Shown here one piece after another: positions 32,252-58,940 of a stretch of DNA of 64,000 bases (positions are counted from its first letter, which is position 1; the number at the start of each line of letters is the position of its first letter). The notes under the pieces are model-generated. The model was not told the DNA's origin. It did not search any database and saw only the letters and a list, made by a program, of their open reading frames with translations. A program made the translations under genes and the position numbers. The stretch is from Termitomyces sp. T153 (Eukaryota; Basidiomycota; Agaricomycetes; Agaricales; Lyophyllaceae), in the NCBI GenBank assembly GCA_018296165.2, contig JACKQL020000061.1, forward strand, positions 1 to 64,000. The letters are read 5' to 3'.

Positions 32252-32280
32252 TGATGTCGAGTTGACATCAGGAGGGTGTA

Positions 32281-32508
32281 TGTAGCACAAATTTTGGTGC
32301 TCGTGTCGATCCGACGCGAGCGCGCTTTATTACTCACTACTAATTACTCTAGCTATTTGCTTATTTCTTTAGATTTAAATTTGATTATCTTAGTATATAA
32401 ATACTTGATCTGTAGATAGTGAAGATTTGACAAGTTTTAAATTGTTACTTTGGAGTCCCCCTCAGAAGAAAGTGTAATGACATTGGAATAACATCCATTG
32501 GCGTTACA
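32281..32508 (+). repeat. Right LTR of inner element
   Basis: Starts TGTAGCACAAATTTTGG and ends GGCGTTACA, followed directly by the GAGTT duplication. It pairs with 24,003-24,227. Confidence 0.92.
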
Positions 32509-32769
32509 GAGTTCCTCAAGACTTGCAAGGACCTGGCAGCTCTTGACAGGTATTTAGAGTTGCAGGGCATGTGGTGCCCTACACAGTTAGCTAGAAAGAG
32601 CTAAGTCAACTTGACTTAGTCCAGAAGTTAGAAAGGCCACTGTGCTAGTGGCCATCACAAATTATGTCAGCCAATTTTTTGGCTTAGTGCAAAGTCCAAC
32701 TGGTCTTTGTCTCCTTACACATTGTTGGTGCAATGCACCAACTATACTAGGAGACTCCTTGTCCATGGG

Positions 32770-33872
32770 CAAGAAAAAGAAATGACCAGGCAAGGCAGAT
32801 GATGATCTGCTAGGGTATACTATGAGCTCTAGACTGAGCTCAAGAGGGGGAGGAGCAGGGAGCAGTTTGCTCCCTGGCTTTAGTGGCTTTGCTGTGCTAG
32901 CAGGAGGCTTGGTGCCAGGGGACATATCACTCCCAACAACAAGACAAGTGGCCCCAGTCCATAGGGACACAAGACCTATAAGTGGAGGACTATCAGTGGT
33001 GCCAAGAGATGTGGCCCTGCCTAGCTATGCTGTGGTGATGCAGCAGTTGCCAGAGTGGAAATGCAGTGTGCCCCTGCAAAGAGGCAAAGCAGGCAGAGGG
33101 CATGGGGGAACAGTAGTTCCCCCTCAAGGAGCAGGAAGAGGATGCGGGGAACTACTGGCCCCCCCTTACTTTAACTGTGGATACTCTGTGGCTGCACAAC
33201 TAGTGCACAACCAGTGTGGTCCCAGGAGTTCCAACAATATGTGATGCCACAATTTGCTGTAGCCCCACCTCCAGTGGCTAGTTCTGGCTATACAATGGGC
33301 ACAGCAGGTCAACAATGACCTGTGACAATATCATCAGAAGTAGAGATCTTGGTCCCTACAACATCATCAGTAGAGGCAATGGAGGTTGATGATGAGAGCC
33401 CAAAGTCAATCACAGCTCTGATAGAATCATTGGCACCTCCTTGGCAGTTATATTTGCTGCTGCCTACCTTGGCACATAATTCTAATGTGCCTTCTGCACA
33501 GGCACAAGAGAGTAGTGCCCCCTCATTAACCACATGGAAGATTGTTGAGCAATGCTTCTTGGCAAAGAAGGGCAAGGGCAAAGCTAAAGAGCCTGAGCCT
33601 TCCACCACTGCAGATGAGCAAATTGCTCTGCTGCCCCAGCAACTGCACAAGGCAGAAGTGCCAGAGGATATCAATGCTAATGTCCTCAAGAACTCTATGG
33701 TGCAACTTGCACTGGCTGAAGTTCTGAATGAACTTGACATTGTTTGAAATTGAAGGGATGAGGCCTGGACAGACCTCTTCCATTCAGCATTGGGGAAGAG
33801 GAAGTGTGTTGCCTCCCCTCCAAATCCTCCAGAAGCAGAGACTTGTACTGTGATGAGCCCCAGTTTTTGCTG
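32770..33872 (+). pseudogene. Unidentified decayed coding region downstream of outer pol
   Basis: Begins near MGKKKK and stays open in pieces (32,822-33,244 and 33,322-33,747), interrupted by TGA/TAA codons. The first piece is Gly/Ser/Pro-rich with GRGHGGT and GAGRGCG runs. The second is acidic then Lys-rich (AKKGKGKAKEPEP) with a helical end. Composition resembles the low-complexity N-terminal part of retroelement Gag proteins, but I do not recognise a family. It is CpG-depleted like the outer element, so it is old and probably belongs to it. Confidence 0.45.
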
Positions 33873-33960
33873 AGCACCATCTTTGGCATTCTTTTGGCAT
33901 TGCAGACTTAGCAGCAGCTGACTACTTTGTATTTGACACAAGTCACAACACTCAGCACAT

Positions 33961-34483
33961 GGGACCGAGCCCGAGGGTTGGACCAAAGCACGAGACCCTA
34001 GCGACCACAAGACTTATCAAGCATGAGAAATATCACGAGGAGCCTGGAGCTTGGGCCTAGATCATCAAGGCCTAGACCCCCCTAGCAACAATTACTAGCG
34101 ACCCTAGTGATCCTGGTGACAAAACGGCGTTCTCCTACCATATAGGGACAAATTATCAGATGCGTACCTTTTTACTATCATTTTGTTTGCCGAACTTGCC
34201 AACACACTGAACGGCGTCTACGCTTCAGGGGTTGACATCAGACTCTTTTCTTGTTTTGGTTGTGTTAGCAATTAAGCGTCACCAAGACTTTGCCTAGGAT
34301 TTTTTCACTTAGTTACAGACTGACGCCTTGTATGCACCATAAGCACAGTGACAGACGCTGTCACTAGTGGTACTTATTTGTTTACTTTCCCATACTATAC
34401 TTCGAAACGTATAAATACTGACTGTACATAGACAGAAAGGGAGATACGGAAGAGAGAATGGAGAACCCCCTTTGAAGTCGACC

Positions 34484-34563
<80 letters not shown>

Positions 34564-34932
34564 AAGCCTACCAGCTTGATATTACACGTCGTCTTTCTTT
34601 CCCTTACCCTGTCTTTGACTCCGGCTTAGCGACGAGCCTACTACACTTCAACTTTGACTTAGTTTGGTACCAACTGCAGGTACCTATTTACATTAATTTG
34701 ACTTAGCGACACTAGCAACTTTGGCTAGTAATTAGATCAAGCTTGTTCCCTGGCTCCGCTGGCGATAGTGCCTTTTTTCTACTTCACTCCCACGTCACAA
34801 CTTTTGCTCTAGTTCTCTGGGACGGTTACTGACTCACCCTCAATTATTAAGTTCCTACTGCCAGCTACCCTATCTAGTGACTAGTGTCAGGTCCTTTCTT
34901 TAGGTCTCCTGCATGGCACTAGGCGGCATAGG
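33961..34932 (+). mobile_element. 972-bp insert with 7-bp duplication, LTR-like
   Basis: Bounded by identical AGCACAT at 33,954-33,960 and 34,933-34,939. CpG density jumps exactly at both borders (GGGACCGAGCCCGAGGG inside, none outside), so it entered the old element recently. It contains a TATA-like GTATAAATACTG (about 34,409-34,420), a long CT microsatellite and a stretch resembling an LTR end plus primer-binding site (CTCCTGCA then TGGCACTAGGCGGC near 34,910-34,925). No ORF. A solo LTR or non-autonomous retroelement is likely, but a 7-bp duplication is unusual for LTR elements. Confidence 0.6.
34484..34558. repeat. (CT)n microsatellite
   Basis: About 75 bp of almost pure CT dinucleotide repeat, ending TCTCTTTCTC, inside the 972-bp insert and about 65 bp downstream of its TATA-like box. 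Confidence 0.95.
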
Positions 34933-34996
34933 AGCACATCAACTGAGCCTTCTATATTTGTCAAGGAATCCTCAACTCAGAGTGATTACTTGACTT

Positions 34997-37231
34997 AGAG
35001 GGCACCACTCATGCCCTATAATAATGTTGTGCCTGCTGGTGATGACCAGAGCATGGATGAGCACCCTAATTTCAAGGTGGCTTCATCCTTTGCTGGGCCA
35101 TCTAAGCCAGTGGCAGCTTCAGTGAAGCCATCTAAACCAGCAGTTATGAAGGAGGGAGCATCAAAGCCCTCTATGAAGTGAGCTGCCACAGTAGTACAGG
35201 CAGACAACCCAGTTGTTGCCACTCCAATTGCCTTCCCAGCTAATGTTCCACAGGGAGCAAAAGCTGGCATAATCAAGATTCTTAAATCAAGGACCTCCAT
35301 TATGCCTGGCCTGCTGCTCCAGGAGTACATGCCTCTTGTACATTGGGATCCTCATAACAAAGAGTTCTTCATCAATCAACACTGAGCTGCCCAAACTGCA
35401 GCAGGTGCTCTAGTGGTATCTGACTTGGGTAGCAATGATGATGATGACATCCCTATATCTAAATAACATATTTTAGATAGCAACTCTGACAATAACACTG
35501 TTGAGTGTTGTTGCAAGGAGCAGCACAATGCTTCTATGTCTAATGCCAGACAGCTATTAGCTATTGATGCAGAGAAGTTCAAACTGGACCTCAAGCATCT
35601 CAAAGATACCATGCCCAGCTGGCTTCTAAACAGCTAGAAAACTACTTTGGTTTGTGGGCACTTTGAGTGCCAGAATGACTTCAGAGGTATTCTCCACCCC
35701 AACTTCTATTGGTCACCAATGACCAATGCAGTCTTTTTTTTGGCAACAAAGCAGTCTTTGCCCACTCAATGGAGATGGCTAAGGTATCTCACATATCCCT
35801 GTGTTACAAATTGTTGTACCAATGGGCTTCCTGTGGAATGCTCATGAATCCAGAACAAATTTGCCTAATCCTGAAGCTCATACAGGATGGCAGATCCAAG
35901 ATTACTATGAGGGAATGGATTCATGCTGCTCTCCTCCTCCAGGAGTACCACCAGATCTTGTTCTACACCACTTCAGACTTGCGCAACTGCACAATGCAGT
36001 GAGTCATGGAGTTGATCTCAGCAGAGTCAGAAATGACTCTGCCCAAGGGGGACTGTTATTGGATTTTGGTACCCTTACCCTCATGATTGTCAGCCATGCT
36101 TGGCTATACAGATAACAACACATGGAGAGTGGGACTTACTCAAGTCCTGATCAGCTGCTACTTCAACATTGATGCCTGGGCACAGTACATATAGCACCAT
36201 GACCATCTAGGCTCACAGAACCTGTACTTGGGCATTGCCATCAATGTGTCATTGCATGTAGATTGACATTTAGTCTTTAGATATATCTTGAATTGGGTGC
36301 TAGCCCCAACTTCTCTGCATGCACAAATGGCCTATATGAGGCTATTCACTATGGTGGTTGCTCAGCCACATCTCTATTAAGAGGTGGTCAATAGCTACTG
36401 GCACTAGGTAGGGGAGTTTAATATGATCTCCTCCCATACTTTTACTCTGCATAGGCTGCAGGTGCTGCCTATGCAAATTAACAACCTCAGTGAGGCAGAG
36501 GTGATTTGTCATCTTCTAGCTAACTGTGTGCCCCCATCCTGGGTGAATCATGTGTATACCTATAGTATACACTTTCTTGATTACCACTGGTCCAGGAGTG
36601 CACTACACATGGACCTGTTTGCATGGGTTGACAATGAATGTTATTATTAACTCCAAACCATTGGGATTCCCCCTGCTATAGAGGGATATGATGAGTGGTA
36701 TGTACCCACTGCTGACAACTGGAAGTACTTCTGCATGCTCCTTCAGATTCAAGAGAGCAGAGGGCACTCCCTTCTCAGCATGGTTGAATGGCTGCACTAT
36801 GGAGAGGAGGGGATCTTCACTAACCTTATACACTAACTGGCCAAGGTGGTGAATGCCACTCAGCAGCTACAGTGGAGCCATCATCTGTGGTTCCTGCAGC
36901 CCTAACTGAGGTAGGGCCTTTGTTGTCAGTAGCTTTAGCCACGACCAACTCAGAATCAAGCTCTGGTGGGTCCTCAGAGGATGCCCTTTCAGAGGAGTCC
37001 ATAGAACTGGACTATGTAAATGACCCAGCATTGACCATGCCTGTCCAACTAGTGACAACTACACCAGTTGTCCCCAGTGCTTTGGAAGCAGTGGTAGTGA
37101 CTAACATTGCTACTCCCACTGCTCCTGAGGCTGGATCCAGTGGCTCCAATAATATGACTAATGCTGTATCAGAGTGCTGGGCAGACATTGTGAGCAATGA
37201 GGAGGCCACAGCCTCAAAGATGGACAAATGA
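34997..37231 (+). pseudogene. Unidentified decayed coding region before the outer right LTR
   Basis: A long coding-like stretch with many stops and frame changes. Readable blocks in order: VVPAGDDQSMDEHPNF, MPGLLLQEYMPLVHWDPHNKE, GALVVSDLGSNDDDD, FRGILHPNFYWSPMTNAVFF, LLDFGTLTLMIVSHAW, WRVGLTQVLISCYFNIDAWA, PMQINNLSEAEVICHLLANC, VPPSWVNHVYTYSIHFLDYH, EGYDEWYVPTADNWKYF, and an acidic Ser-rich end 36,872-37,231 stopping at TGA. The blocks suggest one large soluble protein (roughly 700 residues) associated with mushroom retroelements. I cannot assign a function; Gag-like is only a guess. It lies between pol and the polypurine tract of the outer element. Confidence 0.5.
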
Positions 37232-37503
37232 GTCAGGTGAGCTACTAGATGAGCTCACCCTATGATGTCAATATATATGGGCACTAGCGGCCCACTCTTC
37301 TCACTTAGTGTGTTTGGACAGTGCACTGAGATACACTCTGTCCATATAGAATTGTTTGATTCTACCACAATTCAACATAGAGATTTGTACTCAAAATCTT
37401 GGTGCACTCTTGCAGGTGGGATGCTGTATCCCCACCCTTTCTCTGTCATTTACTACCCTTGTTTTTTGGAAGTAAGTCTGTTGACAGACTCAAAAGGGGG
37501 GTA

Positions 37504-37721
37504 TGTGACAGAGTGCCTGTTACTTGCCTTTACCATTGTGCAATATAATAATAATATTTAATTATATGGGTAGTGTCACATGATGCTATCCCTAAAGTAC
37601 TATACAATTACTTATGTAAGGCAGCACCTTACTTCATACTTTGTAAACAGAACTATCAACTGGTTTTGACTTATAAGGTGTGAACCATAAGCTATGTGAC
37701 CTGTAATGGACATGTTACAGC
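37504..37721 (+). repeat. Right LTR of outer element
   Basis: TGTGACAGAGTGCC to GGACATGTTACA, preceded by the polypurine tract and followed by GCTCC. It pairs with 16,511-16,727. Confidence 0.85.
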
Positions 37722-37726
37722 TCCAT

Positions 37727-39780
37727 ACCATCCACATTATCAGCAAGGATGCTGTTGATTTTTCTATCCTTCTTTGCACTATATACTCACTCAAACCATA
37801 CATTGTTTCATGTTTCACTAGTGTACACACTCTGAATTCTTTAGACCTTTTCTGAGCTCTCAGCCTTTGTGTACAGAAATTATTGATTCCTTGTTGCACA
37901 TGGGAGATAAATTCTCAATAACTGAGATTTACATCCCTTTTACTGATTGCATCAGTTATGACTTATCTCTCGATTTAATTGATAGCACTCTGGTTATGGG
38001 TCCCAGTGTGGAGGTTGATCTTTTTGCATCTTGTTGTATGTTTGGCCTTCAAAGTTGTGTTCCAGCACTGTTATACCAGATGTGCAAATGTTATCCATTG
38101 TTTTATAAAATTCAGCTCTGGTTTGTGTTTCTTGTTTTGATTCCCTTCAAGCATGCTCTTCAGTTTGGCATCACTTGTGTTGATGGTACAGTTGCCCATA
38201 TGAATGCAGCCAACATAATTTGTGTGTGTATCAGTAGGTAGTGGCTAATTTGGGCCCAGATGGAGTATATGTGGTCATGGATGTTCCATTGGTTTTCTGG
38301 CAGCCATTGTCCCAGTTCTTCTCATTGTCTCACCACTTGCAATGACATTGGTCATTCTCTTTTCCACAAAACTTCTTTCTCATGTTATAACACTCTGGAA
38401 AATATAAACATGTACCCATTCCTCTTTTATTGCATCAAATTTGTGGTGATTAAACTTGCAAACAGTTATTGTATTGTGCTGAACAGATGAAAACTTGGCC
38501 ATCCATTAAAAACTTGCACCCCCCATTCTATAACTCCAAATGTGGTTGTTCTTTTTCAATGTGTGAAATGTTGTGGCCATTGCACTACTGTGGTCAAAGC
38601 CTCATAGTGTGTGATAACTTGATAAAGTATGGGAATGGTTGCATGACTGGTAAATGAATTGGCATTTTGTTACATTGGTTGTGTAACTTACCTCCAAGAA
38701 AGAAAGAGAATGTTGAGGTTTAATAAAACATCTGGAAACTTCTTCACAACAAAACTTGGACTGTTTTTTGTGTCTTGTAACACCACAAGATTATGGGTTC
38801 AAGGACAAAACATATGGATTATCCTGGACATTTTGGTAGTATAGAGTTAAACAAATATTGTTGGCCACAATGACAAGGTAGCATATAACAATGTAAAGGA
38901 TTGTAAACAAGTGTAGTACATTTAATAAAAGGTATGATGGTGTTGAAGGAACAAAACATACTTATAACAAGATCTCTGCTACAGGAAGACCTTATTTACC
39001 AATTAAATAGGGGCACTACATGCTTGTCACATGCCATTATATCTGTGTCACATGATGGAAATTAACTTTGCTGCATTTTCTACAATATATTTGACCCTTT
39101 GTAATATAAACATGAACATGATCAACTGTTGCTACAGAAAGACTGAATAAGAACTGTGGCTTGTTATGTCCAACAATATCTTTGCTTTTGCTTACTTCAG
39201 TAACAAACTGACCACTTGCACATTATATAACTCAAGGTCAAATCCTGAAACCAGACTCATTTTTGCTCCCTGCTAGTGTGTTTATGTTGTCTTTCCTCCA
39301 ATTGTTGTGAGTGTGTTGATTTTTGTGCTATTTATTCATAGGATGTCTTTCAAACAATCAATACTCCACTGATATATTGGTCTGTTATCCTTACAGAAAG
39401 GAGAGGTTCAAATGGATCAGCAGACTGGATGAGAAAGGTGAATGGATTTATCAAATTTATTTTCAGATACTGAGTTTATCAGGTCAATTTTTGATGGACG
39501 GGTGATACATCAGATAGAAAGCATATTGCTGAAGCATATGTATACAACATATGATAGATAACATATTGCTATGATATATTCACATACCTTGTATACAAAC
39601 CTTCAAATTGTTGTAGAAATAATGATAATGATGGTATTGGTTGTTCAGCATCCATGATCAGTGACTAAGGCAACACAGACAAAGTTTGAAGACATTTCTG
39701 AATGCACCAGTTATGGTAATTTGAATCATATAAATCATAGTTCTGAGCTAGGCATACTTTGTGATTGATGAAAGTGAAAA
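37727..39780. other. CpG-depleted AT-rich DNA, unidentified
   Basis: Almost no CpG. The open frames (for example 37,867-38,241) are broken and show no domain I recognise on either strand. It continues the pre-insertion host sequence of the outer element: removing 16,511-37,721 plus one GCTCC joins it to the 14-16.5 kb block. It is probably older decayed transposon DNA. Confidence 0.5.
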
Positions 39781-39948
39781 GTAGCAGGCATTGCAGCTGA
39801 AGAGGGCACCCTTCATGAATGAAATTTCCATGCAAGTTTGGTGGGACATTGTCCAGGGCTGGTCACATGATGTGTCACAAGGTTGTCATAGTGGGGGGAG
39901 AAGCAAGGGGTGTTTGATGCAACCAGTCACACCAGTTCCTGCTATGGG

Positions 39949-40351
39949 TGTTGGACTTAAAACAACATCATCACTGGACTTAAATGTTGGACTTCAAACA
40001 ATGTCATTGCTGGATTCAAACAATGTCACCACACACACACAACATACAGGGCTATTGTTGCATTGTGTTGGCCACACATTATCTCTCCACTACTCTGTGA
40101 ACAATGGCTCATTGTTCACATTCATAGATATATAATACCAACCATTGTAGACAGACACCCTCAGTCACTTATATTGGACCGAGGGTGAGTAACTTATACC
40201 TTGATATGCCTTACATATTCATGGACTATGCCATAGAATAACACTTATAATTGTTCTTTAGATATAGTCTTAACTAGTCACTTATATCAGACTGAGGAAT
40301 AACACTTATAATTGTTCTTGAGGTCTGAACTATCAGTCTAGATTTCTAACA
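39949..40351 (+). repeat. Left Copia LTR (with internal 36-bp duplication)
   Basis: Differs from the right LTR by an extra 36 bp near its start (the TGTTGGACTT block occurs at 39,949 and again about 36 bp later). It also differs by CpG-to-TpG/CpA changes such as AACATCATCACTGG for AACGATGTCATCGCTGG. Confidence 0.92.
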
Positions 40352-40498
40352 GGTTATGGGAGATTGCTGCTCAACAACTATCTAGAAGTGTCAAACTTTT
40401 GAATCTGAACCTATCAATCTGATCTTATCTCACATGCATTGCATCACATATCTCTTTGTCTATCCTTGTGCTCTGTGTCTGCAAATCATATCCATACC

Positions 40499-41322
40499 AT
40501 GGCCCCTGCTACCACTACCTCTACTATGCTACCCTCAGACTCTTCCATGCCCTCTGTCCCCAAATGTGTTATCTGCCACAAGTGGGATGGCACTAAATAT
40601 AGCTGCACTGATGGCAATTCTCATCACTGGACAGAGAAACTAAAGGTTGCTCTGATACAAAATGGCATTTACACATATGTCTTCAAATCCATTCTCTTGT
40701 GCCCTGACAGCACCATTGAGCCATGTGCATATGCCAATTGGCAGTTGAATGACCATCTTGGCATCACTTTATGAAGTCTGCACTTAATGATGCCAAGCAC
40801 CATGACCTCATTACCAGCAAAGGGGCAGCACACTGCTTTGAGGACTTGAAGACGTGTGTGTAGCAAGAGGGCCCTATCAAACAGATCAGCCTTCTTCAGA
40901 AAGCCTTATCCACCTACTGCTTACACTCTGAGCCCCTGCCAACCACTGCTGGGTGAATCATGGACATTGTCAAAAGAGAATTTGACATAGGCATGATTGA
41001 AGTCAATATTTTCACTTGTATAGCCTTACTCAACAGCTTAAACAATCCCATATTTGAAACTCTTCAAAATTCTGTATCCACTCTACTAAGCAAGGGAACA
41101 AAAGAGAAACCCTGCATGCCAACCAACATTTGCCTTCTCATGGAGAATGCTCAGAATATCCTGAACTCAAAAGCTAGCACAGGTCAAACCACAGCCTTAC
41201 ATGCAAAAGGGGGTGGGAAGTCTCACAAAACAGATCTACCAGGTCATAATCATGGCCCTGGAGCAATCTGTTGTGAGAATTGCCATTTACTTAGATGCCC
41301 ATGTAGAGGTCACATGAAATGA
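40499..41322 (+). pseudogene. Copia Gag (disrupted)
   Basis: ATG 40,499 opens MAPATTTSTMLPSDSSMPSV, then a UBN2-like Gag with CTDGNSHHWTEKLKVALIQN. It is broken by TGA near 40,772 and by further stops, and resumes at 40,960 in another frame with MIEVNIFTCIALLNSLNNP. A degraded zinc knuckle CENCHLLRCPCRGHMK lies near 41,270-41,320. Strongly CpG-depleted. Confidence 0.7.
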
Positions 41323-41647
41323 TATTGTATACAAAAAGGTGGTAGAATGGCCAGTAAATCTCTCCTCAATGCTTGCACTGCCCAAAAGGCATCCAAATAC
41401 AAAGACAACTCTCTTCCCTCCACAATCAATGTCCCAGCAGCAAAATCCTACATTGCAGTCACAGGATTGGATGGAAAAGTTTGGTATATTAATTCCTCCA
41501 ACCTCAAGCAGTTCCCTGTTCCCAGGAAACAGCTGCACTTTCAGAGGTAGCCAATTCCCCTTTGTCCATGCCTGTACCTGACTTCACAATGGAATGTTTG
41601 GAACATGTGGGCTTTATGGTGTTTGAGAGGGCCTGAGCAACAGTAGA

Positions 41648-44600
41648 TTGGAAGGACTACACAGAACAATTGAGGAGAAGATCATGGCAACTGATGTCTC
41701 TCCCCTCCATCAACCAAAGTGTGCTCCCATCACTTCGACCAATGCTAATCCCTTCCTCATTGACTCAGGCACAACTGTTCACATCTCCCCTTGCCATGAT
41801 GACTTCTTAACACTCTACCCTATACAACCATGCAATGTCAAAGGCCTGGGAGGATCCTCCATTACTGCAATTGGCATGGGAAATATCTGCCTTCATGTTG
41901 TGAAGGGGGTCACCATTCTTCTCAAAAATGCCTTGTATATTCCCAATGCTACTGTTCAACTTGTTTCTGTCAGTTTACTTGCAAAGCACTCTGGCCTCAA
42001 TTCATTCTTCAATGACAAATCTGTCAAGCTCATTGACAAATTCACTTGCACAATCATTGCACAAGGCCCACTACTTCCCAATCAAAATCCTTATGCCATC
42101 AATCTCAACTCAGCTTACAACAAACACTGCATTTGTGTTGCAGTCTGCCACAAACCTGGAAACTTGGCATCACCATCTTGGGGATGCCAACTACCAGACA
42201 ATTATGGATATGGCAAAAGCTGGCCTGGTTCCATGTATGCCCTCTGTCTTCTCCTCCAAGCCCCCTAGGTGTGACTCATGTATTTTTGTAAAGCAGACCC
42301 AGAATACTGTACTTAAGGTGCAGGAGGAGGGGTGGAAAGTGACATAAAAGCTGGAAATTGTCTGGGTAGATCTTACTGGGCCACAGGCCATCATATCACA
42401 AAATGGGTACTCTTATATTATGAATCTTGTTGATGATTACACAAGTGAACACTGGTAAATTCTGCTCAAGTGGAAGAGAGAAGCTTTGGCACACCTCAAG
42501 GCCTGGCAAGTTGCATGGGAGACTGAAATACAAGGAAAACTTGTTACCTATTGAACAGGGCATGATGGAGAACTAGGAGGACATAAGATGGAGGAATGGC
42601 TCTTGTCCCAGGGGTCAGAGCACCAATTTGGAGCAGCACATACCTCAGAACACATCAGTCAGGTTGAGCAAATGCACAGAACAATCATGGGGAAAGCAAG
42701 GTCAATGCAGATAGCTGCAGGATGCCCATCAAACATGTGGGATGAATTTTACCTTACCACCTCACACCTTCACAAGAGGACTCTTACCAAATCACTCAAG
42801 GGAATCACGCCGCACAAAGCCTGGACTGGTTGATGGTCCAACTACTCACACATGCATGAGATCAGATGCAAGGCATTTGTGCTGATTTTGTCATTCCACA
42901 ATCCAAAGATCTACACACATTCCATTGGATGTATTCTTGTTGGGTATGCGCAGAACTCAAAGGCCTACAGATGCTATGAGCAAAAGACTGGAAAGATTTA
43001 TGAAACTGACCATGTCAAGTTCTGTGAAAGCAAAGATGGACATCCGCACCCCCTAATGCCCATTCCCAATGACATCACTCAGGAGGAGCATGCAATCCTT
43101 GAGCAGACCCATCAACAGCTTGATGAACCATCAGCTTATGACAATGAAGGCTCACCACCTACAAAAGAACTTCCAGTGCCCCCACCAGAGCCAGCAGTTG
43201 GAAACCCTCCAACCTTGCACTGATCAGCCCACGTTCCAGTTCCAACAGCCAGAGCTGACCCAGAAAAATGCAGCACAGTCACGAGTAGAAAGGGCGGTAT
43301 AAGAATCCATCGAGCAGGGGAGCATCTGCACATGGTTCGAGAAGAACGCAGATGTGTTGAGCAAAACAACGTGCTTGACAATCAGGAACGGGAAGTATTT
43401 GATCGAGGACCTCATGGACCTCATCAAGATCGAATCCCACCAGATCTAGCTAACATAGCCTCAATCGAGGATCTTGAGCACCTACTTGCGGCTGTGGAGG
43501 AACTCAGTAACGATTGCGCAGCACCAGAGATAAGTGATGAGCCTCGAACCTGGAATGAAGCCAAGCAATCTGGAGACTCAGCCAAATGGGAGGTTGCATA
43601 TCAGGACGAGCTGAATTCTCTACGGAACATGGGTGTCTACAAGTTGGTTCCACGCTCAGATGTACCCGCCAGTCAGAAAGTCCGAACAGGTCAACCTGTA
43701 TTCAAGATCAAACGTGACGAGCATGGCAATGCTGTTCGATTCAAGGTCAGGCTAGTCTTCAGAGGATATGAGCAGATACAAGGGCGGGACTATATGAAAA
43801 CTACCTCACCAACAGCACGCATGGAATCATGGCACGTTCTACTAAACCTTGCAGCAGCAAAAGGATGGGACGCCACTCAGGTCGACGTCAAAACAGCTTT
43901 CTTATACGGCATTCTCCCAGATGATGAAATCCAATATATGAAACAACCGGAAGGATTTGAGGAGAAGGGCAAGGAGGATTGGGTATGGATGCTGGTGCGA
44001 GGGCTGTAGGGCATGAAGCAGGCAGGAAGGATCTGGAATGGGACTGTGAATGAGAATATGGTGTCATGGGGTTTCAAGCGACTGGCATGCGAGTCTTGCA
44101 TTTATTACTGAGTTACTGATCAGGGCACAACCATAGCAGCGTTACATGTCGACGATTTCCTCTCAATTGCGAGTTGCAAGAGAGAAAACAATCGATTCAT
44201 GGAACAGATGAAGCAAGTCTGAACCATCTCCGGTATTTCTGTTGAATGGGATCGCCCTAACCAGACTGTGAAGCTCTCCCAGACCGCCCTCATTGACAAA
44301 ATCATTGCTCAATTCGGCCAGAAAGATGCGACGCCTCTATCACTACCTATGGACCCCAACTCAAGACTGCGACGGGTCGACTGCAAAACTCTATCTGAGG
44401 AGGAGCAACAAAGCTTAGAACGCACCCCGTACCGACAGCTCGTTGGCTGTCTACTTTATCTCACCATATCGACACGTCCTGATATTGCCTTCAGGGTCCA
44501 ACAGCTTACTCAATAAGTTGATTCTTACGCAACACCTCACTGGAACGCTGCGATACGCCTGGTACGCTATCTAAAAGGGACTCGGGACCTACGACTACAC

Positions 44601-45092
44601 CTGAGGGGACAAGGTCAGGATACAACGCTTACTGGCTTTACGGACTCAGACTGGGCCAGTTGCCTGGACACGAGACGAAGCGTGGGCGGATTCACTTGGA
44701 ACCTTGGGACCGGGGTAATTTCGTGGGCTGTCAGAAAGCAAAGAACCGTGGCTGCGTCATCCTGTGAGGCCGAATATATGGCGGTATTCGAGAGCGCTCA
44801 GGAGTGTATTTGGCTTCGAGGGCTGCTCAAGAACATCGGTTTCGACCCCACCTCCCAGCCCACAAAAATATTCTGCGATAATGACGCTGCAATCGCGCTA
44901 TCCGAAGACCCTCTTCTACATGCTCGAGTCAAACACGTCGACATAAAGTATCATTTTCTTCGAGAACGCGTACAATCTGGTGAATTAACGCTATGTCGGA
45001 TCCCTTCCAAAGAAAACACTGCCGATATCTTTACGAAAGCCCTGCCGGCCCCTGCCTTCAAATACCTTCGACCACGCCTCGGTCTTCGGTGA
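41648..45092 (+). pseudogene. Copia Pol: protease, integrase, reverse transcriptase, RNase H
   Basis: Protease FLIDSGTTVHIS (DSG intact) near 41,755. The GAG-pre-integrase block WHHLGDANYQTIMDMAK with CDSCIFVKQTQ is next. The integrase core begins WVDLTGPQ and NLVDDYT near 42.36-42.45 kb, with stops. Reverse transcriptase (43,540-44,520) is TWNEAKQSGDSAKWEVAYQD, YKLVPRSD, VDVKTAFLYG and LHVDDFLSI, with the catalytic DD intact. RNase H with KQRTVAASSCEAEYMA, CDNDAAI and HVDIKYHFLRE ends at TGA near 45,092. From 42,588 onward the pieces stay in one frame with a few stops (TGA 42,833, TAG 44,009, TGA 44,111, TGA 44,221, TAA 44,516). Upstream pieces change frame. Confidence 0.85.
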
Positions 45093-45140
45093 AGCACCAT
45101 GATTCCATGCGAGGAGGAGTGTGTCTGCGGTGAGGAGGAG

Positions 45141-45507
45141 TGTTGGACTTAAAACGATGTCATCGCTGGACTCAAACAATGTCACCACACACACACAACA
45201 TACAGGGCTATTGTTGCATTGTGCTGGCCACACATTATCTCTCCGCTACTCTGTGAACAATGGCTCATTGTTCACATTTATAGATATATAAAACCAACCA
45301 TCGCAGACAGACACCCTCAGTCACTTATATTGGACTGAGGGTGAGTAACTTATACCTTGATATGCCTTACATATTCATGGACTATGCCGTAGAATAACAC
45401 TTATAATTGTTCTTTAGGTATAGTCTTAACTAGTCACTTATATCAGACTGAGGAATAACACTTATAATTGTTCTTGAGGTCTGAACTATCGGTCTAGATT
45501 TCTAACA
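45141..45507 (+). repeat. Right Copia LTR
   Basis: Retains CpGs lost in the left copy (AAAACGATG, CTCCGCTAC, ACCATCGCAG, GCCGTAG, ATCGGTC). Followed by ATGGG. Confidence 0.92.
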
Positions 45508-46299
45508 ATGGGAGGTACGAACGTTCCAACCGGAAGGCTGGTGGGCAGAAGAAGCTGGTGACGACCGTGCGAGAAGTTCTCGAACCATCGCGCGTGGAGC
45601 TCGGTGTGAGAATTCCGAAGCGAGTTGAATTCTTGGGCCGAGATTGGCCCGTCCGTGGGCACGGCGGGGGGAGGGGGTGTCATTATTCCGGCAATAGATG
45701 ATCCTCTGCCGTCAGCGGATCTAGGAGGTAGCGAGGCTTTTCTCATGCACCGTATGTGCGAGAACAAAAGCAATTGATTAGATCGACAATCGAGACGCGT
45801 AACGTCCAATAAGACGCGTGACGTAATGTACTAACGAGAACCGCTCTGCGAGCGTAGTGTGAGATGGACAGTGTGAGACGACGTGAGACCAAGTAGAATG
45901 AGACCTTACCTGCGAGCGCAGTGTGAGACGGCGGAGTCCCTGACACGTCGCTCGCAGGTATATGTACAATATAGAACCGAGCTTGGCCAGCGAGGAAATG
46001 AACAATGAGCAGGGGCGAATGTGATGACGTGGAGAGTGGGCGAGCTTAACTGTGCCAGGAACCCCAGGCAAACCTCACCGATCCACTTTCTCAGCTTCTA
46101 GCTGGCTCTCATGAGTTGAGCGCCAAATGGAGATATTTCTGCTTTCATATTTCTGCTTTCAACAAAGTTGTAAAATTGCACTGCAACCGAGAGAAAGAGG
46201 ATCCTTTTGCAGTTAACCATTCTGCTTAAATTGATATATGCACGTTCGCTTGCTGAAGATTCATACGAACCTCCTCCGACTGCATCACCACTTACAAAC

Positions 46300-48549
46300 A
46301 TGACACAGGCAACTGCGTTGACGTCTTTTTCTACGAAGCCTACGAAACAGGATCCTTACAGCTACCAAGTGGGTTTCGGGAATTCCTTTGCGAGCGAAGC
46401 GTTGTACGCCCTTACTTTTTTCTGTCGTCGTACCATTCATTGACCGAAATGAAGACCAGACACGCTTCCAAGGGATCAAAACAGTCCTCATCGATGCAAA
46501 TATGGTCTTTATGCAGAGCAGGTGTGTCTCTGTAGTTATATATCGTAGGCCGACAAAGTTAAAATGTAAAATGAAGCTGAATGGTACCCCCTTTGTCACG
46601 CCTCGTGCTCAGTGTCTTCGCTCGTAAGAGTTTACACTTAAATATCACCGCTCACCAAATTCATGGAAAAAATTCGAGGTGGATGTATCGTATTCGGCCC
46701 TCTGTGGCTCATCAAGGATTCACCAAACTTCCAGACAACCCTGACGTATATATCTGCCTATCTAGTATGACTACAAATACGCCTAATGCATTCTCGTTTC
46801 CAATTTAGCTTGAATCTACTTTTCTTCCTCTCAATCCGAAGGTCCACGCTAGTCCTACACGACTTGCTTGGTATCCCTTCGACATCCCCAAAGATACGAT
46901 CTCGGTCGATTTTGTCGACGGCCTGAAGACACTGGCCGGAAATGGTGATCCCACATTTAGGGAAGGCCTTGCGATTCATATGTACCTTGCCAATACATCA
47001 ATGAAAAACAAGGCGTTTTGCAACAATGACGGCGATTTTCTTATCCTTCCACAATTGGGAAGGTTGGATATACAAACAGAGTTTGGAAAGTATGTGTTTT
47101 GAACGCTAACCAATCAAGCGCTTCTGGTTCCTATCCTGTTAGGCTTATGGCTCGCCCTGGAGAGCTTGTTGTTATTCAGCGCGGTCTCAAATTCAAGGTC
47201 AGATTTCATCAACGTCAACGACTAGTCTATTCAATGCTTATTGGATAGATTATGTTGCCTGACGGTCCCTCGCGAGGATGTGAACTATTTTTATACTCTT
47301 TATATAACACTCACTTGACCAATGAATGAAGACATTCAAGAGATTTTTGGTTCTCACTACGTACTCCCTGATCTCGGGCCTCTGGGTGCCAACGGTCTCG
47401 CTAACGCGCGAGATTTTGAATATCCGCTCGCCCATTTTGATGCTGATCAGAGTCCATGGAACAGTACGTATATCTTGTATTTCGTTAGTTACACAGTGCC
47501 TGACATCTTATAATCTGTGCTCTTTGTTAGTTGTCTACAAGTGTGTATGACCGTACTACCTGAACAATCTCTCTTACATTCCCCAGGTTGTGTGGCAAGC
47601 TTTTCAATTGCTCTCAGGACCATACGCCATTTGATGTAGTCGCATGGCACGGAAAGTAAGCACTCAAGAAAATCTTTCGTTTTGGGCTATCGAATATCTC
47701 AGCTACGTCCCTTACAAATACGCTATGGAGAAGTTCGTGTCTGTCGGAAGCATTTCTAAAGACCACATCGACCCATCCATTCTTTGTGTCCTCACAGCAC
47801 CATCTAAAACTCCGAACGCACCTCTTGCAGACTTCCTGATATTCAGCCCTCGTTGGGACGTTGCAAATGGGACGTTCCGTCCACCGGTAAGTCACTGGCA
47901 CTGTATAGGCCATGATGATTCACCGCTTAGTATTCCATATTCTAGTATTACCATCGTAACGCGGCAACGGAGTTCATGGGAATGATATACGGAGAATATG
48001 GAGGAAGAAGCAGCTCAATTCAACCTGGTAGGGACGCTCTTCTTCCCGCTTTCAAGTAGTGTTGAAGCCTTGGTTTCATTCTAAGGTTACGCAAGCTATA
48101 AGACTGGTTTTTGTCCTCATGGAGGTCGGTTGCGATGATTATGTCTATCGTAATCTCACTCTCATTTTTGCATGTAGTGCCCTACGACGAGTTTAAGAAG
48201 GCTACTGAGTCAGATCTTGCGCCAATGAAGGTTAACGAAGGGAGCATTGGTATTATGTTTCTGTTTTAGAGGACATTCTTTATTTCTCAATATACCCCTA
48301 GGATTCATGTTCGAAACAAGTATGATGCTGACAATCACTGACTACGCAATTCATCGCTCTGGGAAGCTGCTGCACGGTAGATCTTCCTCAGACCATTCAG
48401 TCAATTATTTGATTCATGTTTTCGTATCAGAGCACGAACCCAAGATGTGGGATGACTTCAAAGCGCAGTTTATGGACCATCTGGATGAGGTTAAAGCTGA
48501 ACTCGAAGCTGCTGACCTGCCAAACCCACTCTCTGGCACACGCTTTTAA
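46300..48549 (+). CDS. hmgA: Homogentisate 1,2-dioxygenase
   Basis: Cytosolic non-haem iron enzyme that opens the ring of homogentisate to maleylacetoacetate in phenylalanine/tyrosine breakdown. The ATG is at 46,300. Exon 1 ends after YQVGFGNSFASEA near 46,400; the following exons give LPDTLPRDQNSPHRCKYGLY, LNGTPFVTPR, NSRWMYRIRPSVAHQGF and KVHASPTRLAWYPFDIP. Then come VDFVDGLKTLAGNGDP, ARPGELVVIQRG, MLPDGPSRGYIQEIFGSHYV, PLGANGLANARDFEYP, NCSQDHTPFDVVAWHGN and YVPYKYAM. The iron-site block PPYYHRNAATEFMGMIYGEY contains the metal His and Glu. GFCPHGVPYDEFKKA follows, and the end is HEPKMWDDFKAQF to TAA 48,547-48,549. Introns are short with GT-AG ends and all joins keep frame, so it appears functional. 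A Ngaro fragment ends about 210 bp upstream. Confidence 0.93.
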
Positions 48550-49160: not shown

Positions 49161-49338
49161 CCAGAAGGACGATTGTGAGCAAAGGGCGCTGAATTCCGAG
49201 ATCTAGAATAGATCGAGGCCTTTTCCTCAAAAGTTCGACGCGGAATCCGTACAACTGCTTGTATCTGTTTGTTCCTTACCTTTATCTTTATCTTATTATC
49301 TTATCTTGTTCTTTTTTCTTATCTTACATCTGAATAAG

Positions 49339-49615
49339 TGGAACGGGCAAGAGAGAGGAGGGTTGCCCGGGGTTAATTCGGGCCAAGATTAGATCACCGT
49401 CACTGTTCCCTTATCTCATTCATCACATCACATCTCTTTCACGTATCACTCCATTGTCTCTGTCTCTCTCTATATATTGCTGCGAGCGCTAGTGATGGCA
49501 ACCATCGTCGCCTCACACTGCGCTCGCAGGTACGTATCAATCTTAATTACCTTCGTCGCCTCACACTGCGCTCGCAGCGTTCGCTAGTCGATATCATTGC
49601 GTCACGCGTTTCTTC
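49339..49615 (+). repeat. Ngaro A1 terminal repeat
   Basis: Begins TGGAACGGGCAAGAG. Contains TCTCTATATATTGCTGCGAG (a possible promoter) and two copies of GCCTCACACTGCGCTCGCAG. All 12 differences I can see from A2 are at CpG sites, with A1 keeping CG. Confidence 0.9.
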
Positions 49616-49663
49616 TGTAGATCCAATCTACTCCCGCGATTAATTGTAAGCACCCGCAAGTGC

Positions 49664-50596
49664 ATGACAAGTCGCGTACTTTCGAGAGACTCTAGTGGAC
49701 GTTTTGCTCGAGCATCAGCCAGCCCTGCCCCCCCCAGCATGCCTATCGACTCTACATCTCCAGCTGACAAACTAGGCGCGCTTCGCGAGTTGCAGAATCA
49801 GCTTTCCACAAGGATGGAACAGCTCCTCTCGCAATTCGAGTCCCTCACCGCGCACCTTCCATCGCCAACAACCCCCGCAGCAGCCACAGCCGCAGCAGCC
49901 CAGCAAGCAAGCACTTTCATGCCACCGATCGCCGGAGTAGGAGCCAACGGTGCGTCCACCTTCACTCCTCCCCTTTCCCTCCAATCTCGCTTCCCCGATG
50001 TCGAGGCGGCAGTGATTGCGGCCATCATCACACACGAATTCAAAGCGGCAGATCTGCACAAACTCGACCCCACAAATCGCAACAAAGAGACAGCATATAC
50101 GTTCAACGGCAGCACGAATCAATTCGAAGTGAGCCACAGGGCTGCCAGGGAATATAAAAACCCCTTCTCCGTACTCATACCCCTAACGACCTACTTTAAA
50201 GTCCTCGCCTTTCACGTCAACAACAATGCAGCCATGGACGCGTTCTGGGACTACTCAGCTCATCTGCTAAAGCTTGTGGCAGAATATGAGTGGCACGCCA
50301 TCTATGCCTATCATTCCATATTCTTCAATCGACGATGGGCTGAGATGGCAGTGGGGGACTACTCGAGGTGGGGACAAAGTGAGAATGGTCTATTGGCGGA
50401 GCACGTCTATGGGCACCGCAAGCCCAACCCTTCCAAGCAGGCCAAGAACACAGCAACCACTTGCTCCAACCCTGGCAAAGCATGCCAAAAATTCAACGAT
50501 GGCAAATGCCCAAACACACTGTGCCCATGGGGCCACTCGCATACTTGCTCCTCATGTGGAAAATCCGACCACAGTAAGCTCCAGCACAAAGACTAG
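49664..50596 (+). CDS. Ngaro ORF1, Gag-like protein
   Basis: ATG 49,664 opens MTSRVLSRDSSGRFARASAS, followed by a leucine/glutamine helix (about residues 38-60), a Thr/Ala/Pro-rich linker and a FMPPIAGVGANG block. A conserved region is AREYKNPFSVLIPLTTYFKV with FWDYSAHLLKLVAEYEWHAI. It ends with a cysteine/histidine cluster of zinc-finger type (KACQKFNDGKCPNTLCPWGH, then CSSCGKSDHS). 310 residues. Nucleic-acid binding and particle formation are inferred from position and the finger. Its TAG (50,594-50,596) is the only stop separating it from ORF2 in the same frame. A second, decayed copy lies at 54.5-55.2 kb. Confidence 0.82.
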   Translation: MTSRVLSRDSSGRFARASASPAPPSMPIDSTSPADKLGALRELQNQLSTRMEQLLSQFESLTAHLPSPTTPAAATAAAAQQASTFMPPIAGVGANGASTFTPPLSLQSRFPDVEAAVIAAIITHEFKAADLHKLDPTNRNKETAYTFNGSTNQFEVSHRAAREYKNPFSVLIPLTTYFKVLAFHVNNNAAMDAFWDYSAHLLKLVAEYEWHAIYAYHSIFFNRRWAEMAVGDYSRWGQSENGLLAEHVYGHRKPNPSKQAKNTATTCSNPGKACQKFNDGKCPNTLCPWGHSHTCSSCGKSDHSKLQHKD

Positions 50597-52846
50597 GCCC
50601 TCGGCCAGGCAAGCTGTGCTTCTGTGCAAACAGCTTGCTCAGGCCTCTCATTGGACAACTTTCAACCATCTCCCAGCTTCATTGCACTGCTTCCTATTGA
50701 CCCCACTCTCCCCAACCCCCTAATCCGTCCCAACACTGATCCACATGCTAACGCACCACTTGCCTCCACCAAACACCTCACACCCATCTCTTCCTCACTT
50801 AACAAGCTCGCATGGGCACACTATTTACAAGATTATCCTGATCATACATTTGTAAAGTCATTACTTCAAATAATACGCTTTGGTGCCAATCTTGGCTTTG
50901 CAGGAGATTGCTCCACCTCGCAGCAGTGCACCAATCTAAAGACAGCCTTTGCCAACGCTTCAACCATATCAGCCATATCAGCTGACATTGCCAACCAAGT
51001 CACTGATGGGTGCACGCACGGGCCGTTCGACACGCCACCATTTTCCAACTTTCGTGCCTTGCCAATCAGAGCGGTCACTTGCAAACGCTCGTCCAAAGTC
51101 CGACGCATCCATCACCTTTCCTGGCCTGATGGCAGCTCCGTGAATAATGGAATTGCTGACTCTGAAGCCACCATCATCTACGACATGGTCAAACAGGCCT
51201 TAAATGATCTTGTCGTGTCAGGTCCAGGCTCTCTGATGCTGAAGCTCGACCTCGAGGCAGCATTCCGCCACATCCCTGTCTGCCAGGAGGACTGGCCTCT
51301 CCTTGGCTTTGAATGGCTGGGGAAGCTATACTTTGATGTCATCCTAGCTTTCGGAGGCAGATCTGCTCCGTACATATTTAATCTCTTTGCTGAGGCTCTC
51401 CACTGGATACTGCAGTGTAACATCCCTGCCCGCGTGCACCACTATCTCAATGATTTCCTTAAAATATTCTCGCCATCAATCCCCCATACAGTTGTCAACA
51501 AATCCCTTGAATGGGCAGCAGACCTTGCTACCCAGCTTGGCCTCAGATTTCAACCATCCAAAATAGTTGGTCCGGACACCTGCATTGAGTTCCTGGGCCT
51601 CGAGCTGGACTCCATTGCAATGGAGGTCTGCCTGCCCCCTGCCAAGCTTGAGTATCTGCGGGAACTGACTTCTTCATGGGCAATGCGCCACTTGTGCACT
51701 CTCAGGGAACTCGACGAACTCACAGGATACTTGCAATTTGTGTCTCAAGTCATCCCACTCTCTCGTGCCTTCATCCAATGCCTCCATGACTTTGCCACCT
51801 CCTTCCCCACATCTCCCTTTACTCGCCGCCACATTCCTGCCCTTGCTCACCATGACATCAAATGGTGGCACTCTGTCACACCCTCATGGAATGGAATCCG
51901 GCTCTTAACCCCAACCCATCATCAGATTGACATATTCACAGACGCCAGTGGCAGCAAAGGCCTGGGAGGCCACTTTGAGTCTGAGTGGTTCGCAGCTCGT
52001 TGCCCCCGACGCTTGCGATCTCAGCACATCCAAGTCAAGGAGATGTTTGCAGTAATATATGCAGTCCTATGCTGGGGCAAATCCTTCCATGGAGCCCACG
52101 TCGTATTCCATGTAGACAACAACGCCGTCTTCAATGCAATAAGAAACCAGTCAATCAGATCCCTGCCCACCATGAAATTTGTGCAACACCTAATAGCCTT
52201 TGCTTGCCGCCTCGACTTTTCCTTCTCTTCTGAGTGGTTGTCCTCCTCCAAGAATTCCGTTGCTGACACTGCCTCTCATTTTTCCTTTTCACGCATGTTC
52301 AAAATCGCACCCTGGCTGAACCTGAAGCCCAGCTCGAAGCGCCTCCAGCTTGGTGGTATGAGCAAAACTGACAGCATCCCAAGACCATTGCATTTTACCT
52401 TTGGCATGGACTTGCAGCCAGCACTTGAAAGACATACTCAACAGGCCAGCGACAATTCATCATCCATGCCCAGCTCAATGGCTTGTATAACCCTGACGGC
52501 TCAATCCTCCCAGCCTCCAAGCCAGCAATCTTGTCTTGGGTGGCACACCTTGGCAGATACATCCAACCAAAAACCATCAAGGCCTACCTCTCTGCTGTGC
52601 ACTCCCTCCATGTTGATGGAGGGCTCCCCTTCACCTCTGTTGAGTCCCCTCTTGTCCAGCGCCTCATCCGTGGGATCAAGCGGTATCACAGCGAGCAAGA
52701 CAGAAAACCAGTACAGCCAATCACTTTACCCATCCTCACCGCCCTTCTTGCTCAGCTCAAGCCAGGGACCATTGCAGGAGACACAACAACTTATGCCACA
52801 TGCTGCCTCATGTACTCAGGACTACTTTGCAGTGGCAAACTCATAG
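50597..52846 (+). CDS. Ngaro ORF2, reverse transcriptase / RNase H (catalytically altered)
   Basis: In frame with ORF1 across a single TAG; no ATG near its start. Reverse transcriptase: SLMLKLDLEAAFRHIPVCQE (first catalytic Asp), FGGRSAPYIFNLFAEALHWI, and HHYLNDFLKIF where YLDDFL is expected (AAT at 51,449-51,451). Domain end: CIEFLGLELDSIAMEV. RNase H: IDIFTDASGSKGLGGHFESE, VKEMFAVIYA, VVFHVDNNAVFNA, then NSVADTASHFSF, with the acidic residues present. After about 52,330 the conserved protein moves to the ORF3 frame, so the last 170 codons are probably a non-native tail. The Asp-to-Asn change predicts loss of polymerase activity. Confidence 0.85.
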   Translation, partial: ALGQASCASVQTACSGLSLDNFQPSPSFIALLPIDPTLPNPLIRPNTDPHANAPLASTKHLTPISSSLNKLAWAHYLQDYPDHTFVKSLLQIIRFGANLGFAGDCSTSQQCTNLKTAFANASTISAISADIANQVTDGCTHGPFDTPPFSNFRALPIRAVTCKRSSKVRRIHHLSWPDGSSVNNGIADSEATIIYDMVKQALNDLVVSGPGSLMLKLDLEAAFRHIPVCQEDWPLLGFEWLGKLYFDVILAFGGRSAPYIFNLFAEALHWILQCNIPARVHHYLNDFLKIFSPSIPHTVVNKSLEWAADLATQLGLRFQPSKIVGPDTCIEFLGLELDSIAMEVCLPPAKLEYLRELTSSWAMRHLCTLRELDELTGYLQFVSQVIPLSRAFIQCLHDFATSFPTSPFTRRHIPALAHHDIKWWHSVTPSWNGIRLLTPTHHQIDIFTDASGSKGLGGHFESEWFAARCPRRLRSQHIQVKEMFAVIYAVLCWGKSFHGAHVVFHVDNNAVFNAIRNQSIRSLPTMKFVQHLIAFACRLDFSFSSEWLSSSKNSVADTASHFSFSRMFKIAPWLNLKPSSKRLQLGGMSKTDSIPRPLHFTFGMDLQPALERHTQQASDNSSSMPSSMACITLTAQSSQPPSQQSCLGWHTLADTSNQKPSRPTSLLCTPSMLMEGSPSPLLSPLLSSASSVGSSGITASKTENQYSQSLYPSSPPFLLSSSQGPLQETQQLMPHAASCTQDYFAVANS

Positions 52847-53442
52847 TCAGCAAAGGAGGCAAGTACTCCGCCTCCCTTAACTTATCCCGCAGATCCGTCC
52901 AATTCCTACCCACCTTCGCGGATGCCATGCATGTCTGCCTCACACTGCCCACCTCCAAAACAGACCCATTCTGCAAAGGGGTCACCATCACCATTGCTGC
53001 CACTCCCAGGCAACCAACCTGCCCTGTCGCCGCACTCAAAGCCCTGTTCATCGAAACTCCCCACCCTGATGATGCCCCACTCTTTGAACAACTGGATGGC
53101 CAAGCCCTCTCATACTCCCACTTTGTTAAGTCTTTTCAAAACGCACTCTCACTTGCAGGTCTCAACCCTGAAATCTATGCTGGCCACAGCTTCTGCTGGG
53201 GAGCTGCCTCAGCCACCGCCACTGCAGGATATTCTGACTATGAAATACAACTCCTCGGCAGGTGGCGCAGCGACTCATATAAGCTTTACATTGACAACGC
53301 CCCAATTGAATCCTCCACCTCTCCTCTCTTCTCCATGTGGCCTTCACTCACCTCGCCCCTTTTGAGCCTCCAGCCCTTCGGGACTTCACAGCAATGGCTT
53401 GAGTTCAGCTCTTTCTCTCCTTTACCAGGGGGGCCAACTTGA
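52390..53442 (+). pseudogene. Ngaro ORF3, tyrosine recombinase (inactivated)
   Basis: Tyrosine recombinase that would integrate the circular cDNA. The conserved start FYLWHGLAAST is followed by TGA at 52,426-52,428 in a position where Arg (CGA) is expected (STR-KTY). It then continues KTYSTGQRQFIIH and is open to TGA 53,440-53,442. Core motifs: LPTSKTDPFCKGVTITI, PVAALKALFI, AGHSFCWGAASATATAGYSD and LLGRWRSDSYKLYID. In the HxxR motif the Arg is Cys (TGC 53,194-53,196). The next residue, also usually Arg, is Trp. The nucleophile tyrosine in the YKLYID region is kept. Overlaps ORF2 in a different frame. Confidence 0.82.
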
Positions 53443-53542
53443 GAACTTCTCGGACTCAGAAATACAGACATTTCTCACGCAGCGGTGGCCGAAACACTTA
53501 AGTCACATTTCCCTCAACTTCCATTAATCCTTGCCTTGAATT
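53397..53542 (+). repeat. Ngaro B1 repeat
   Basis: GCTTGAGTTCAGCTCTTTCTC to CTTGCCTTGAATT. It overlaps the end of ORF3, abuts A2 and pairs with 53,905-54,050. Confidence 0.88.
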
Positions 53543-53544
53543 GA

Positions 53545-53821
53545 TGGAACGGGCAAGAGAGAGGAGGGTTGCCCAGGGTTAATTCAGGCCAAGATTAGAT
53601 CACCGTCACTGTTCCCTTATCTCATTCATCACATCACATCTCTTTCACATATCACTCCATTGTCTCTGTCTCTCTCTATATATTGCTGCAAGCGCTAGTG
53701 ATGGCAACCATTGTTGCCTCACACTGCACTCGCAGGTATGTATCAATCTTAATTACCTTCGTCGCCTCACACTGCGCTCGCAGCGTTCACTAGTCAATAT
53801 CATTGTGTCACGTGTTTCTTC
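53545..53821 (+). repeat. Ngaro A2 repeat
   Basis: Second copy of A1. Shows CA or TG where A1 has CG (for example GTTGCCCAGGG, CATTGTTGCC, CACTAGTCAATATC). Confidence 0.9.
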
Positions 53822-53904
53822 CCCCACCTGCCATCCCTATTCAATTCTTTCATTCTACATATTACATCTTCCTACTTGCCCATTACATTAGTCCCTTGTA
53901 GTTA

Positions 53905-54050: not shown

Positions 54051-54116
54051 AATAAGCGTCAACCTGACAAATACAATTATTTATATTTATTTGTCCATTG
54101 TACTCTTCACTTAATA

Positions 54117-55733: not shown

Positions 55734-55760
55734 TGTTTGACCAGCCTTATAGTCAATTCT

Positions 55761-58931: not shown

Positions 58932-58940
58932 CTAAGTGTG

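Follow-up and report, generated by a model that had tools for sequence, protein, structure and literature searches.

A CpG-depletion edge inside a Copia element of Termitomyces sp. T153 points to a DNA-methylation boundary beside a homogentisate dioxygenase gene

The window analyzed here is the whole stretch of 64,000 nucleotides comprising bases 1–64000 of contig C61 of the Termitomyces sp. T153 genome (72.4 Mb in 307 contigs; C-numbers below denote these contigs). Segmentation of CpG content with an HMM gave nearly CpG-free blocks at 14277–24007, 32324–33965, 34925–43231 and 54272–62322. The third of these ends within a Copia retrotransposon, and a homogentisate 1,2-dioxygenase gene lies beyond it. 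The features to which we refer are as follows.

23996–32508, + strand: Gypsy element in depleted DNA, whose CpG edges are its own ends, with no internal step
34925–43231, no strand: CpG-depleted block left of the edge (HMM segmentation and Poisson test; CpG observed/expected 0.03)
39944–39948, + strand: left copy of the target-site duplication ATGGG, from the sequence
39949–40351, + strand: Copia left (5') terminal repeat, 6/7 CpG-class sites lost
40352–43231, + strand: left part of the Copia body, with 6 CG among 567 CG+TG+CA
43210–43282, no strand: the edge (likelihood fit of CpG retention, 2-lnL range for one breakpoint)
43232–44315, + strand: shoulder, CpG observed/expected 0.66, containing the start of the RVT_2 region
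44316–45140, + strand: right part of the Copia body, CpG observed/expected 1.01
45141–45507, + strand: Copia right (3') terminal repeat, 1/7 CpG-class sites lost
45508–45512, + strand: right copy of the target-site duplication ATGGG, from the sequence
45536–46061, no strand: right-flank repeat with 47 CpG, whose relatives have 0 (C25) and 41 (C9) CpG
46300–48549, + strand: homogentisate 1,2-dioxygenase gene of several exons (PF20510 and PF04209, in three frames), in a CpG-normal island
49331–54053, + strand: Ngaro-like element with split direct repeats (A1 49331–49615, B1 53397–53545, A2 53537–53821, B2 53905–54053)
54272–62322, no strand: next CpG-depleted block, beyond the Ngaro-like element, with 6 CpG (segmentation)

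The block left of the edge holds 12 CpG, against 372 predicted from base composition (Poisson p ~5e-140). Across the depleted blocks CpG loss reaches zero CpG over kilobases, and TG and CA are raised while TA is not. Other features of this landscape were noted. A stretch of 959 bases (33966–34924) carries CpG amid depleted DNA, has sharp ends and no other match within the window, and is perhaps a nested insertion. The Gypsy element has a CpG observed/expected of 0.58 within fully depleted surroundings. Gradual shoulders, of the kind described below for the Copia, are also present at the domain edges at 12754–14276 and 62000–62800, and the edges at the Gypsy ends (24–32 kb) are abrupt. The last depleted block contains diverged inverted repeats (57940–61908; 755 bases, 68%, approximately 2.5 kb apart), possibly two copies facing opposite ways or an ancient DNA transposon. 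Elsewhere in the genome, the contig pairs C71/C211, C153/C29 and C204/C158 gave Copia matches of equal or near-equal length and score, a sign that the assembly may contain segmental duplicates or haplotypes that were left unmerged.

A single Copia insertion spans 39949–45507, with the ATGGG duplication on either side. Membership of Ty1/Copia is indicated by the paired terminal repeats, by the matching target duplications and by the RVT_2 reverse transcriptase (PF07727 in 43224–44009, E = 1.8e-23), and a remnant of the Pol beta-barrel domain (PF22936, Pol_BBD) was found at 41627–42268 in the one frame of the left half that was scanned. Among the listed relatives of the reverse transcriptase (120 of 163), the fungal names were Dentipellis, Hericium, Ganoderma and Termitomyces. 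By eye, some 36 bases are duplicated in tandem at the start of the left terminal repeat (39949–40020), a duplication that the right repeat lacks. Over 367 aligned bases the two repeats show seven CpG-class differences and differ at 7/353 other sites. The related copy on C10 aligns over 5.4 kb at 76%, unbroken across the edge, and this, together with the few non-CpG differences between the repeats, indicates that the Copia is one element. Outside CpG-type contexts, divergence from C10 was 317/1718 left of the edge and 185/1249 right of it, and from C33 277/1220 and 158/809, respectively (two of six references, summed from bins), so that both halves look like one lineage. Against both references the right side is slightly better conserved than the left, as would be expected for a reverse-transcriptase region.

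To locate the edge, CpG retention along the Copia body was fitted by likelihood. The best single breakpoint falls at 43,282, and a three-segment fit puts its first step at 43,232. Left of this step CG makes up 6/567 of CG+TG+CA, rising to 42/217 in 43,232–44,315 and 57/156 in 44,316–45,140. When CpG sites of six related copies were scored for retention in the window, with a site able to count once per copy, 1/198 were kept left of the edge and 137/312 right of it. The gain from allowing an internal step was 81 lnL for the Copia, 19 for the Ngaro-like element and 2.6 for the Gypsy (24–32 kb). A smooth gradient with no breakpoint, which the initial annotation had named as a refuting outcome, was compared with stepped fits: a logistic gradient (lnL -251.1) did nearly as well as a single step (-250.2) and a sigmoid with free plateaus reached -248.3, but two steps, at 43,232 and 44,315, fitted better (-243.3). 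The edge is thus best described as a step and, beyond it, a shoulder where some 1.1 kb is depleted in part. Part of this shoulder may be composition, as the C33 copy also dips in the same part, although less (38/162 vs 48/176, compared with 28/155 vs 57/156 in the window).

These fits bear out the initial annotation's placing of an edge within the Copia open reading frame at 42800–43220, with the fitted range at its right end. Its description of a left repeat and left pol nearly without CpG and full of stops also holds, with 28–35 stops per forward frame in the left body besides the losses listed above. The right half, which it called CpG-normal, is so at 44,316–45,140; the shoulder is partly depleted, and stops are present (five in the best frame of the right body). 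The right terminal repeat, described in the same way, has lost one site of seven but is CpG-poor (bins of 0.35 and 0.22).

On the far side of the edge, both ends of the homogentisate dioxygenase gene were inferred from reading frames, the last of which has no Pfam hit. Beyond the gene lies the Ngaro-like element, so labeled from its repeat order and reverse transcriptase, in which the split of the Copia is mirrored. Its gene-side repeat A1 kept 22/22 CpG-class sites and A2 10/22, and CpG retention steps down within the element near 50,218 (range 50,130–50,443). With the Copia edge on one side and the Ngaro edge on the other, the gene sits in a CpG-normal island, both edges of which are within transposons. 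On C4, where the surrounding DNA is CpG-normal, a copy of the Ngaro tail kept 31/31 scoreable CpG and the window copy 15/31, although the two differ at only 2/390 other sites; this comparison covers one stretch of 452 bases. Measured against A1, the C4 tail has lost 2/19 CpG. The Ngaro-like element is followed in tandem by a 71% relative (54117–55185), mostly inside the CpG-free block.

Given that each insertion begins with two identical repeats, the CpG difference between them may show where a border has lain since insertion. We examined 15 terminal-repeat pairs, of which the seven with clearly unequal flanks formed the main count.

Window Copia, left flank depleted: 6/7 lost on the depleted side vs 1/7 on the other (Fisher p = 0.029)
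C10 Copia, left flank depleted: 9/10 vs 1/10 (p = 0.001)
C45 Copia, left flank depleted: 10/10 vs 1/10 (p = 0.0001)
C9 Copia, the mirror image, right flank depleted: 8/10 vs 3/10 (p = 0.070)
C33 Copia, left flank depleted: 2/11 vs 0/11 (p = 0.48)
Window Ngaro, right flank depleted: 12/22 vs 0/22 (p = 0.00006)
C21 Gypsy, right flank depleted: 5/11 vs 0/11 (p = 0.035)

Every one of the seven had lost more CpG from the repeat adjoining its more depleted flank (sign test p = 0.016, with the flank grouping set after seeing the data and using flank CpG, not repeat CpG). Pooled, 52/81 sites were lost on the depleted side and 6/81 on the other (Cochran-Mantel-Haenszel p = 4e-15). Five pairs were significant singly, the exceptions being C9 and C33, and we regard the window Ngaro as the most telling. 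In this small sample, then, an element loses more CpG at whichever end adjoins the more CpG-poor flank, be it the left or the right.

The pairs outside the main count (losses given as left, right) comprised those with both flanks low, namely L029 (4/9, 6/9), L042 (2/2, 2/2), the window Gypsy (3/9, 2/9, or 4/10, 2/10 in a second tally), the C56 Gypsy (3/13, 8/13) and a 122-base pair on C12 (L005; 4/7, 1/7). Two were covered on one flank only (L038, 3/4, 4/4; L043, 1/6, 3/6), and the C19 Gypsy had both flanks intermediate (1/9, 3/9). Second repeat pairs were left out, these being Ngaro B1/B2, both on the depleted side (5/9, 3/9), and the short L039 pair (1/3, 2/3). A terminal-repeat pair was sought for the C70 and C48 copies and none was found. 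The view of the initial annotation that decay follows chromosomal position is supported, mainly by evidence beyond its own: the paired repeats, the mirror-image Copia on C9, the C4 Ngaro tail and the right-flank repeat with its 0 vs 41 CpG.

It had added that decay does not follow age, and here our results differ. In eight elements, the further the terminal repeats have diverged, the more CpG has gone from the depleted side (Spearman 0.81, p = 0.015), ranging from 2/11 lost in the C33 copy (0/318 other differences) to 10/10 and 9/10 at 2.4% and 3.2% divergence, respectively. In a joint fit to these eight, CpG sites on depleted sides were lost 166 times as fast as non-CpG sites changed (95% 111–248), and those on the remaining sides 11 times as fast (95% 4.5–22); L038 and later-added pairs were excluded, the intervals come from a coarse grid, and a CpG lost to the identical product in both repeats is invisible to a pair comparison. 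In most repeats the TG and CA products are intermixed, those of C45 being partly grouped by strand (1 TG, 5 CA, 4 TG). On balance, age-graded loss with intermixed products is easier to explain by CpG decaying one site at a time over a long period than by a single burst. The window Gypsy is the one clear outlier: both its flanks are depleted and its repeats differ at 4/206 sites (Copia 7/353), and it has lost only 3/9 and 2/9 sites, a low loss for its divergence that counts against a strict clock. Other misfits concern position. The C56 Gypsy has zero CpG in the outer 500 bases of both sides and yet its repeats lost unequally (p = 0.11), and with the C12 pair it shows unequal loss where no flank difference is clear. 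In bins of 300 bases, C44 and C16 pass from a CpG-normal left flank into depletion near the start of Copia homology, and the C162 copy is depleted in its middle and less so at its ends. Together with the misfits named before them, these three copies allow that the repeat itself may contribute.

Since insertion, the left repeat and the left 3.2 kb of the Copia have lost nearly all CpG to TpG, CpA and other states, the right part has retained many, and CpG-specific loss with TpG and CpA products marks one side of the edge. Judged from sequence, the edge probably records, in mutations, where a CpG-methylated heterochromatin domain ended, inside the Copia and short of the gene. The agent would have acted continuously, the simplest candidate being deamination of methylated cytosine, with the methylation deposited by enzymes of the DNMT1/DNMT5 type and CpG within the domain lost perhaps 170 times faster than other sites are substituted. 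The border may have been held by the neighborhood of the homogentisate dioxygenase gene and not by the element, as inferred from one window. Exon-level pieces of CpG methyltransferases occur at three loci in the genome (one DNMT5-like, two DNMT1-like), and the PF00145 hits resemble DNMT5 and DNMT1. One genomic piece matches PDB 7r76 (record name Rad8), which we take to be Cryptococcus DNMT5; two loci match DNMT1 structures, one of them with a TGA within the matched stretch. In a TET/JBP search the control genomes gave no match. A single UDG-family hit was seen in the genome, with a stop inside. We tentatively extend this reading to suggest that LTR pairs act as built-in recorders of the border, that the gene island at about 43.2–50.2 kb is long-lived, and that a loss of about 170-fold may need a methyltransferase-coupled mutator or very weak repair of T:G.

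An alternative that we consider unlikely is RIP-like hypermutation, in which bursts on duplicated DNA leak outward and end where homology or leakage runs out. CpG-biased mutation of a RIP-like kind is described in the accessible parts of two basidiomycete studies (PMC4014442, PMC4457147), and it would suit the complete loss of CpG over kilobases, the edges near the start of Copia homology at C44 and C16 and the partial strand grouping at C45. It sits poorly with the sparing of a right half that has at least 54 genomic matches (the left at least 46, with 40 candidates scored), with unequal loss between two repeats of one element, with the age-grading of loss in the set of eight and with the interleaving of products in most repeats. 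As for classical RIP, its position-blind attack on similar repeats is not what the Ngaro tail shows, with 0/31 sites lost on C4 and 16/31 in the window, and its CpA preference is not matched by CA and TG raised without TA. A slow mitotic process tied to the methyltransferase is conceivable.

Gene conversion or recombination that swapped in a CpG-intact right half, which the initial annotation had offered as a possible cause, is very improbable. The steepness of the step would suit it, but the search for a better genomic match to the right half, also proposed there, gave none above 79% among the candidates scored (40/182 and 40/136), which leaves this explanation unsupported. The few non-CpG differences between the terminal repeats, the matching target duplications and the single lineage indicated by the divergence of both halves from C10 and C33 also stand against it. 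Misassembly, a haplotype switch or the joining of two Copia families is just as improbable. Some contigs are apparently duplicated, including the three pairs named above, but six other elements lose CpG in the same sense (four with p < 0.05), and a chimera, which the initial annotation had named as a refuting outcome, was rejected on the target duplication, the identity of the repeats and the colinear C10 alignment over the edge. A polarity coded by the element, whereby Copia left ends are attacked first, was suggested by C10 and C45 and would suit the greater left-hand loss in four of the five unequal-flank Copia pairs (window, C10, C45 and C33), but it was dropped as scarcely credible, given that C9 is reversed, that the Ngaro-like element and the C21 Gypsy lose on the right, and that edges fall at varying element positions (300-base bins, by eye).

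The initial annotation had taken both flanks as one Ngaro fragment split by the Copia. Within the window, the left piece (39.8–39.9 kb) has one better-than-chance match, of 63 bases at 15.9 kb, and the right piece has inverted matches of 65 and 59 bases (76–77%) to the window's Ngaro repeats. These make a Ngaro remnant plausible on the right side, but the left piece and the joining were not borne out: the right piece has 22 further matches, seven of which were examined as empty sites, and none of the seven aligns across the joined flanks. Before insertion the flanks were joined, and depleted DNA now runs up to the insertion point with CpG-rich DNA directly beyond. The left flank may have been depleted before insertion, with the border then about 0.8 kb from the inferred start of the gene, or may have decayed alongside the left half of the Copia.

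Several fungal systems resemble what we propose. In Neurospora, the DMM complex reportedly keeps methylation out of genes. According to the accessible text of a black truffle study, methylation is reduced near gene starts and ends (PMC4165359). In both it ends near genes, as it may do here. The parts available of an Agaricus study describe CpG methylation that is found almost only in transposons and is clearly bounded next to large repeat clusters (PMC7473861), and those of a Ganoderma study report CpG-directed mutation and CpG methylation in transposons (PMC4457147). Agaricus bisporus and Ganoderma sinense are thus alike in the CpG context and its concentration in transposons; the differences are that methylation is here inferred from lost CpG and that the border lies inside single elements. 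For three basidiomycetes with a Masc2-like Dnmt1, the available text reports CpG-to-TpG decay of transposons and proposes methylation followed by deamination (PMC4352252); as far as that text goes, whole copies were scored, whereas here the two ends of one copy are compared.

Leakage of RIP is also said to occur in Leptosphaeria. CpG hypermutation near repeats, with C-to-T change spreading into adjoining DNA, is described in the accessible part of a study of Rhizoctonia solani AG8 (PMC4014442). Spread beyond repeats is shared with both, but in this genome the mutated zone ends inside a repeat, and repeats of nearly the same sequence fare differently according to position. Dim2-linked mitotic C-to-T mutation in Zymoseptoria tritici occurs mostly inside methylated regions, by the part of the source available (PMC8016269), and has a CpA context where ours is CpG. 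A limited literature search gave no report in which such a border was located by comparing the CpG content of an insertion's two terminal repeats.

Taken from sequence, the Copia edge looks like a DNA-methylation boundary of a kind already known, in a clear example that can be quantified. Loss of CpG from transposons is usually scored per copy, but one half of a transposon can retain CpG while the other half loses nearly all of it. As a single insertion carries its own control, the effects of where an element lies, how old it is and what it is can be told apart. If this holds on a larger sample, the speed of mutation at methylated CpG could be compared against that at other sites, and past heterochromatin borders in CpG-methylating fungi could be mapped from an assembly alone.
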